This document shows, piece after piece, positions 48,565 to 49,898 of a DNA stretch of 64,000 nt. Made by a program: the position numbers and the translations under genes. How positions within the stretch are numbered: the stretch's first letter is position 1; the number at the start of each line of letters is the position of its first letter. The DNA is taken from the NCBI GenBank assembly GCA_019114175.1, contig DXFZ01000057.1:22856-86855 (forward strand), read 5' to 3'. Below the pieces are notes generated by a model. That model searched no databases and was not told the origin of the DNA. It was given only the letters and a program-made list of their open reading frames with translations. The stretch is from Candidatus Corynebacterium gallistercoris. Its GTDB lineage: Bacteria > Actinomycetota > Actinomycetes > Mycobacteriales > Mycobacteriaceae.

Positions 48565-48639
48565 ATGTCTGTACTGTATTTGGGCTATGATGCGCATTGT
48601 TCGATCTGCGCTCGAACCGGAAAACGAATTGATGCCTAG
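48565..48639 (+). CDS. DCC-type thiol-disulfide oxidoreductase, N-terminal fragment
   Basis: 24 codons ending in TAG (48637-48639). They encode MSVLYLGYDAHCSICARTGK and four further residues. The YDAHCSIC stretch matches the YDGxCxxC start of DCC-family (DUF393) thiol-disulfide oxidoreductases, with CxxC intact. A GTAAGGAAATCC ribosome site precedes ATG. After the TAG the same frame continues as IGEAITVIPLQ, which is the next conserved part of the DCC fold, so the fragment and the downstream gene form one ancestral frame. Too short for standard gene calling. Confidence 0.6.
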   Translation: MSVLYLGYDAHCSICARTGKRIDA

Positions 48640-48657
48640 ATCGGAGAGGCGATCACT

Positions 48658-49707
48658 GTGATACCTCTTCAATCATCTTTGATGAGGAAGTTTCGAGACG
48701 AGGCTTTTGAGGGAAATCCGCCGTGGCTTCCAACTCTAGTTGAGGTAGATGAAAAGAATACACAGGCTTGGGTTGGCTGGAAGATGGGACCTCGGCTTGC
48801 GCGGGAAATCGGTGTGAAAAACAGTGCTCGCGTGCTGTCTGTAGTCGGTCAAGAACAGCCATTATTTATCAATTCGCTATTTCATTCCACTCGGGATCGC
48901 CGGTCGGTATTGAAGTTTGCTGTAGGGGCGGCTATCGGTGCTTTCGCTTTGACTGGTATTAAACCTCAGTCGGTGGCAAATGCAGTTAAAAGAAGTCAGG
49001 TTTCAAAGTCGGAAGAATTTTTTCTGTCAGAACAGATATCAGAAGATTATTTCGGCCTTCTTGAATCGCCAGATGCTCAGGTGGCGTTCGCTGGGTATAG
49101 CATAGCCACTGATGTTCAAAATCGTTCTGCAAATCCTGGGTCTCGTTTGCAGAAAATCGAAGACATCGACTCATATTCGACAGGGATCCATCCTATGGGG
49201 CATGTGCGCACGTATCAGGACGGATCAAAAGAACGATCCATCGGTGTTATTGATCTTGATAACAAGAAGATTTTTCGTGCGTATGAACTGAAAAAGGGAA
49301 GAGTAATTATTCAAACAGGGGCGGCTGTATACTCGCTCACTGAACAGCGTGGAGTTAAAGTCCTGTCAACAAGCGTCAATGGATCGTCACCGGAAGTGGT
49401 AGAAGTCAGAAGTTTGGAACGTGCTGTTGCCAACGGAGAAGACCCTTGTGGAGGCTGTAACGGCCCCGGAGGGCCGGGTGATCAATCGAAGATAAGCGGT
49501 ACCGAGTGTGATTCGGAAGTAGACTTGGGCTGCGCTCTTGGGCTTGCGGGATGCGCTGGATGTACTGCGGCGTGTCTTGGTACCGGAGGCTGGGCATGCG
49601 GATTCTGTTTGGTCACGAGCTGCGGTGGTTTTATCGCATCTAACGGATGCTGCAAAGGTGATGGTTCCTCGCATCATGTCTGCAAACGTTGCTCGGCTCC
49701 GCTATGA
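48658..49707 (+). CDS. Halocin C8-like Cys-rich bacteriocin precursor (with DCC domain remainder)
   Basis: 349 residues from a GTG with a GGAGAGG ribosome site; the frame is shared with the fragment upstream. Residues 1-~70 resemble the rest of a DCC domain (VIPLQSSL; WLPTLVEVDEKNTQAWVGW). A Tat-type sequence follows at ~78-100 (DRRSVLKFAVGAAIGAFALT). Then a ~150-residue hydrophilic region precedes a C-terminal domain (~265-349) with 14 Cys, Gly/Ala-rich and hydrophobic (CALGLAGCAGCTAACLGTGG). Precursor order, Tat motif and Cys pattern resemble the halocin C8 family, in which the middle region acts as immunity and the end is the mature peptide. The gene is AT-richer than its neighbours. Family membership is my reading of the pattern, not a search. 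Confidence 0.65.
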   Translation: MIPLQSSLMRKFRDEAFEGNPPWLPTLVEVDEKNTQAWVGWKMGPRLAREIGVKNSARVLSVVGQEQPLFINSLFHSTRDRRSVLKFAVGAAIGAFALTGIKPQSVANAVKRSQVSKSEEFFLSEQISEDYFGLLESPDAQVAFAGYSIATDVQNRSANPGSRLQKIEDIDSYSTGIHPMGHVRTYQDGSKERSIGVIDLDNKKIFRAYELKKGRVIIQTGAAVYSLTEQRGVKVLSTSVNGSSPEVVEVRSLERAVANGEDPCGGCNGPGGPGDQSKISGTECDSEVDLGCALGLAGCAGCTAACLGTGGWACGFCLVTSCGGFIASNGCCKGDGSSHHVCKRCSAPL

Positions 49708-49898
49708 GTAAAAAATTATTTGCAGTGCTCTTCGTCATCTTCGCTTTTTGTTCTTTGTCAGCCGGTATTCTCAACTGGTTAGATGGGCAGCGTGTGGTTT
49801 CCGTTTTGTTTACGCTTGGAGCGTTGATCTTCTTGGCGTGTGCGCGTCACTCTCTGAAGAGTGATCCTAAAATTTCTTCACAGAACAATCATGTGTGA
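49704..49898 (+). CDS. Two-TM membrane protein, putative bacteriocin immunity protein
   Basis: 64 residues from ATG at 49704, overlapping the end of the precursor gene (ATGA arrangement). Two hydrophobic helices (KLFAVLFVIFAFCSLSAGIL and VVSVLFTLGALIFLACA) and a polar basic tail. Small membrane proteins translationally coupled to bacteriocin genes commonly give self-immunity or take part in export; neither role is proven here. Confidence 0.6.
   Translation: MSKKLFAVLFVIFAFCSLSAGILNWLDGQRVVSVLFTLGALIFLACARHSLKSDPKISSQNNHV

Follow-up and report, generated by a model that had tools for sequence, protein, structure and literature searches.

What is encoded between galK and panD in Candidatus Corynebacterium gallistercoris? 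The window analysed here is a stretch of 64,000 nucleotides (assembly GCA_019114175.1, contig DXFZ01000057.1, positions 22,856 to 86,855 of the forward strand), and the locus in question consists of an open reading frame (ORF) of 349 residues, a short piece ahead of it and a small gene behind it. A preliminary description of this DNA took the locus for a halocin C8-like bacteriocin gene in which a DCC-type thiol-disulfide oxidoreductase is fused to a Cys-rich peptide, with a signal for twin-arginine translocation (Tat) between them. We propose, with a probability of about 0.55, that the window holds a TAG-interrupted copy of a gene for a leader, a signal and a bacteriocin, that the leader likely forms or shuffles the disulfides of the tail in the cytoplasm before export, and that the adjoining gene is a likely immunity gene.

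The fusion noted in the preliminary description is, as judged from sequence, real in relatives of the window gene and interrupted in the window itself. With the long ORF as query, a protein search yielded 8 proteins, among them the window's own (P0001), and P0002 is 52% identical to the window ORF over the full query. In P0002, P0004, P0007, P0009 and P0010 the complete order is found in one protein: a CxxC domain, a Tat-like signal, a spacer and a tail that begins with DPCGGC. Homologues with the same domain order exist, so the anatomy is more than chance. Profile searches returned 43 and then 106 proteins (both scored about 8,000 candidates only), and the actinobacterial family that emerges has a common plan: a leader of some 105 residues that contains CxxC and PTL comes first, followed by an internal Tat-like signal, a spacer and the cargo at the C-terminus. 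The single reading frame from the oxidoreductase start to the Cys-rich tail that had been described is found in the intact relatives but not in the window, where an in-frame TAG (48637-48639) splits the leader after 24 codons and the same frame resumes from a GTG at 48658. By eye, the N-terminal piece in the window resembles the N-termini of P0006, P0011 and P0002. The other elements described for the locus are present, namely the ATG at 48565 with YDAHCSIC, the RRSVLK motif at 48898-48915, the C-terminal region with 14 Cys and the gene with two transmembrane (TM) segments that overlaps its end. All 14 Cys of the 349-residue ORF, which lacks the CxxC of the leader, are located at residue 264 or later. 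The small gene encodes 64 residues with two hydrophobic segments, and its start codon, an ATG at 49704, shares bases with the TGA that ends the precursor (49705-49707).

Seven positions are invariant in 68 aligned members (L6, C12, C15, P56, L58, G71 and R112 in P0002 numbering) and all seven fall in the leader and signal; the 68 members were chosen for an intact leader, and the invariance of the CxxC and the Pro rests on that set. D9 is found in at least 90% of the same members and completes a DxxCxxC motif with the two invariant Cys residues. The Pro follows the second Cys by 41 residues in 97 of 102 members, and this spacing is also 41 residues in E. coli thioredoxin. Fold searches with the model of whole P0002 were diffuse, therefore the leader-only relative P0078 was modelled. 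Between residues 11 and 110 of this model the predicted local distance difference test (pLDDT) scores average 84-97 per block, and the solved chains listed for it belong, by their titles, nearly all to the thioredoxin superfamily. Its elements follow the beta-alpha-beta-alpha-beta-beta-alpha order of that superfamily, the CxxC sits at the first helix and there is a cis-Pro-like residue; a thioredoxin fold is predicted for the leader. Sequence searches of the PDB gave nothing useful, and the predicted spacer domain has weak, mixed structural neighbours only.

The assignment of the leader to the DCC family is weak by the Pfam model. The DxxCxxC motif is present in the 24-codon piece of the window, and hhalign aligns the leader with the DCC1-like family PF04134, which has this motif too, over 35 columns (probability 77). 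However, with E values of up to 0.1 accepted, PF04134 matched only 4 of the 68 relatives (best E 0.0026), the score lies below the curated cut-off where seen (17.7 bits for L105 against a gathering cut-off of 27.8), and the leader differs in having PTL 41 residues past the motif. There were no PF04134 matches for the window pieces or in the window's own genome.

The signal lies inside the precursor. The pattern [ST]RxxF[LIMF]K is found internally in 72 of 101 members (one of the 102 was set aside because its PTL lies far off), compared to 2 of 2020 shuffled stretches, and it is followed by AxA in 93 of the 101. The segment is weakly hydrophobic, with a median of 1.28 and 4 of 101 at the TM threshold, and no stretch upstream of the motif reaches this threshold in any of the 101. 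The Tat model TIGR02811 matches 22 of the 68 aligned members at E up to 0.1 (best 7.7e-5). The first Arg of the signal is invariant in the 68, while the second position is Arg in 12 of 102 members and Gly in 65; the window itself has DRRSVLK. Tat-type export is likely but not proven, because the motif, the AxA, the hydrophobicity and the TIGR02811 matches go together with a second Arg in only 12 of 102. Cleavage is predicted after the signal, following the AxA. A tatC gene is present in the window's own genome.

What does the leader carry? The cargoes found behind this one kind of leader are fulvocin C-related, 14-18-Cys tails such as that of the window, cationic 2-Cys tails (L105, P0105 and P0088, by eye), aromatic-rich tails (P0103 and P0109, by eye) and M23 peptidases. 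The fulvocin C-related model NF033852 matches 11 of the 68 relatives (best E 1.2e-34) and lies C-terminal in the relatives examined singly; the window protein has no match to it. In a sample of the class, 5 of 197 genomes have an NF033852 match and all 5 have a leader-profile match at the same place. M23 was matched in L107 (E 1.1e-10) and L108 (E 7.8e-10), and by precomputed Pfam assignments it is present in 19 of 106 relatives from the database. Of 102 long members, 100 have 2 or more Cys residues in the tail, and the number of these residues is even in 84 of the 102. Four paralogues in genome G610 are 72-90% identical in the leader and 24-31% in the tail, and the corresponding values for pairs are 59% and 21% in G700 and 49% and 25% in G649. 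Taken over all the genomes compared, including the exceptions in G245 and G440 given below, the pattern is that of a common delivery part with exchanged weapons. The G610 genes form an array of four precursor genes and a leader fragment in about 20 kb (L091 and L092; C1, about 2.230-2.250 Mb). At L107:1282-3114 (minus strand) and L108:4015-5820 (plus strand) a leader and signal of this kind precede an M23 peptidase in place of a Cys-rich peptide.

Small membrane genes adjoin the precursors in Rubrobacteraceae. In the Rubrobacteraceae loci (L091-L110), a small ORF that has at least 2 TM segments and begins no more than 250 bases from the stop follows 13 of 17 precursors, compared to 3 of 78 other long genes. 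Such an ORF also follows 5 of 9 precursors classed as non-fulvocin (the window, L043, L044, L057 and L002; not L005, L045, L058 and L059), a count that leaves out the short fragment L060. It follows none of 13 precursors classed as fulvocin-type, a set in which L052 and L056 were not singly compared with NF033852 and L003 and L004 were classed by record annotation; at random positions it was found in 179 of 4400. The small TM protein is likely an immunity protein.

Known systems resemble parts of this arrangement. Accessory oxidoreductases, Tat-exported bacteriocins and common leaders with variable cargo are known kinds. PMC4919988 describes dedicated thioredoxin-like CxxC proteins that are thought to aid bacteriocin disulfides in trans; co-production of PedC raised pediocin potency, and the authors speculate that it catalyses formation of the correct disulfides. 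PedC, BlpGst and BdbA-type oxidoreductases are alike in tying a thioredoxin-like CxxC protein to bacteriocin disulfides, however, they are encoded by separate genes that act in trans and PedC is predicted to be secreted (PMC4919988), whereas the domain described here is part of the precursor itself and precedes the signal. NF033852, a model of 150 positions, is located behind the signal and does not match the tail of the window protein. Enzyme-derived leaders of ribosomally synthesized and post-translationally modified peptides (RiPPs), such as the nitrile-hydratase-like leader, combine a conserved leader part with an exchanged C-terminal cargo. Polymorphic toxins likewise have a conserved N-terminal trafficking part and exchanged C-terminal cargo (PMC3482391). 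Both differ from the present family, which has a predicted thioredoxin-fold leader and a Tat-like signal. The terms thioredoxin, twin-arginine, 'TAT pathway', DUF393 and Rubrobacter have no occurrence in 300,000 of the 357,715 characters of PMC3482391. No description of a thioredoxin-like bacteriocin leader, or of a conserved CxxC domain fused to an internal Tat-like signal and exchangeable cargo, was recognised in searches of open-access papers.

How might such a precursor work? The cytoplasm is reducing and Tat accepts folded proteins. Since it is fused ahead of the signal, the thioredoxin-like leader would work in cis, on its own cargo and before export, and would likely form or shuffle the cargo disulfides inside the cell. 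Tat would then export the folded product by means of the internal signal, and cleavage after the AxA would leave the leader inside the cell. The exported tail may kill competing bacteria, and the adjoining membrane protein may protect the producer. A broader proposal, which we hold tentatively and at somewhat less than even odds, is that the family constitutes an undescribed actinobacterial class of bacteriocins in which each weapon comes joined to a thioredoxin-like folding enzyme of its own. This universal redox leader would oxidise its cargo inside the cell and pass the folded product to Tat through the internal signal, and it would serve any cargo, be it a multi-disulfide peptide or a cell-wall peptidase. 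If true, this would be a self-contained way to produce and export peptides with multiple disulfides from a reducing cytoplasm. The leader would also be a genome-mining handle for many unrecognised antibacterial tails that have no family name, and the precursors would serve as a test case for an internal Tat-type signal that functions with a folded enzyme domain in front of it.

Other explanations must be weighed against this proposal. The leader could be a targeting or holding domain rather than an oxidant, one that keeps the cargo unfolded, reduced or harmless in the cytoplasm or docks it to the export machinery, with the CxxC as a redox switch for release. The reducing cytoplasm would suit such a role, as would the fact that one kind of leader precedes cargoes as different as Cys-rich peptides and M23 peptidases, the latter with few Cys. 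On the other side, catalysis on cargo thiols is in keeping with the invariance of the CxxC and the Pro and with the presence of at least 2 tail Cys in 100 of 102 long members, and we regard a targeting or holding domain as less likely. It is quite improbable that the tails are secreted Cys-rich signals or pro-proteins of enzymes and not bacteriocins. That some tails are M23 peptidases agrees with this idea, the activity of the tails is inferred, and the fulvocin label is a family name and not an assayed function, but the fulvocin-related cargo, the small TM genes adjoining the precursors in Rubrobacteraceae and the paralogue array with divergent tails argue for weapons. Several comparisons weigh against our proposal. 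In loci L043-L060 the small ORF follows 2 of 9 precursors and 7 of 114 other genes, so the small-gene link holds only for part of the family. One pair in G245 is 50% identical in leader and tail alike, the other two G245 pairs have leaders of 28% and 37% identity with tails that are almost unalignable, and in a G440 pair the tail (33%) is more similar than the leader (24%).

A true halocin C8 homologue with an added domain, which is closest to what had first been suggested, is very improbable. The Cys content of halocin C8 can be likened to that of the Cys-rich tail. According to a review (PMC11509114), ProC8 (283 residues) leaves the cell by Tat and is processed into HalI and a halocin of 76 residues. 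In outline the window protein is similar, as a single precursor with likely Tat export, a long other part and a putative small mature peptide; it has RRSVLK with a weakly hydrophobic segment, a Tat-type signal by pattern, as well as a long spacer. However, the halocin C8 model TIGR04449 (69 positions) gave no match in the window protein, in its own genome or in 296 genomes of the phylum and is absent among the families matched by the 68 relatives at E up to 0.1, while the positive control, Haloferax volcanii, was matched; by this model the window protein is not a halocin C8 member. The family also has an extra CxxC domain upstream of the signal and a separate putative immunity gene. The earlier idea of a bacteriocin-type precursor was right in kind, as siblings match NF033852, and its assignment to halocin C8 is not supported. 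Finally, the window copy itself is rather probably a pseudogene that is being lost and has no working product, which is compatible with the proposed function of the family. With its leader split, the copy is probably decaying or else makes a shorter precursor; decay is the most likely reading, and a shortened precursor made from the GTG at 48658 may rely on other oxidases. Besides the in-frame TAG, a pseudogene is suggested by P0006 and P0011, whose protein records have a common internal deletion when compared with P0002, with most of the leader and the signal lost, by the record of P0003, which lacks both ends as annotated, and by the restriction of strong matches to the precursor to 1 of 201 genomes of the genus and of the small TM gene to 1 of 242, the window's own genome both times. 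Against this, the frame is open on either side of the TAG, the signal is intact as is the full set of 14 tail Cys, a Shine-Dalgarno-like sequence lies upstream of the GTG, and the TAG may be an assembly error. No tRNA was found in the window, and a suppressor tRNA elsewhere in the genome was not searched for.

The features of the locus are collected in the table below. A scan for promoters in 48300-50050 gave no sites and a scan for terminators gave one, neither result exceeding shuffles, and there are no repeats of at least 14 bases within 48300-50000.

Table. Positions of the leader, signal, cargo and neighbouring genes in the window
Feature	Position	Strand	Basis
galK (so named in the preliminary description), flanks the low-GC block on the left	47144..48331	+	
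First leader piece, 24 codons, ATG start, CxxC at 48598-48609, ends at TAG	48565..48639	+	sequence
GGAGAGG, Shine-Dalgarno-like, 8 nt upstream of GTG 48658	48643..48649	+	sequence; putative restart
Main ORF, 349 residues: second leader half, Tat-like signal, spacer, Cys-rich tail	48658..49707	+	sequence and relatives
PPWLPTL with the leader PTL, cis-Pro-like position	48718..48738	+	
Internal Tat-like signal: RRSVLK (48898-48915), weakly hydrophobic region, ANA-type end	48898..48984	+	
Cys-free spacer; separate alpha-beta domain predicted in a relative (P0002 model)	48985..49440	+	
Cys-rich tail, begins DPCGGC, 14 Cys; predicted cargo peptide	49441..49704	+	
Two-TM protein of 64 residues, likely immunity protein; ATGA overlap with the precursor	49704..49898	+	
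panD (so named in the preliminary description), flanks the low-GC block on the right	49991..50413	+	

How did this copy come to lie between galK and panD? The lower content of guanine and cytosine (GC) reported for this block is borne out by values of 0.493 at 48565-49707 and 0.431 in the small gene, compared to 0.642 in the whole window, and by the GC content at third codon positions (GC3), which is 0.42 in the precursor compared to 0.79 in galK and 0.76 in panD. Among 8 relatives with a panD match, galK lies within 1.5 kb of panD in genome G010 alone, and the gap there is about 0.15-0.17 kb, compared to 1.66 kb in the window. Because of this short gap the block looks like an insertion, with G010 as the one empty site. 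The window copy looks horizontally acquired. A match in G092, of the same genus, was rejected as chance (51 residues, 29% identity, E 4.3e-4, internal stop).

The wider family is scattered among actinobacteria. Counting matches with E above 1e-6 as weak and not as members, the leader profile matched 22 of 394 genomes of the class (6 weak, 16 strong including the window's own genome) and 23 of 396 genomes of the phylum (6 weak, 17 strong), and 15 of these 17 belong to one family, Rubrobacteraceae. Within that family 16 of 39 genomes were matched, 15 strongly and one, G798, weakly. A scan of genome contigs with a single protein gave no matches, and with a profile it gave one Rubrobacter locus. 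Carriers include Streptomyces plasmids, Rubrobacter, Arthrobacter and Nocardiopsis, and the precursor of G649 is the same as that of Rubrobacter radiotolerans plasmid 3. P0005 and P0021, from Spinactinospora, are annotated to begin past the CxxC, at a position that corresponds to the start of P0001; this late start may come from the choice of start, a stop or a real short form. In L053, L054 and L055 the CxxC is kept, the signal is degenerate and there are fewer tail Cys, and L060 is cut short, another sign of frequent loss. The M23-type entries P0106 and P0121 end early or become Arg-rich and look frameshifted in the database; they are probably truncated or frameshifted entries.
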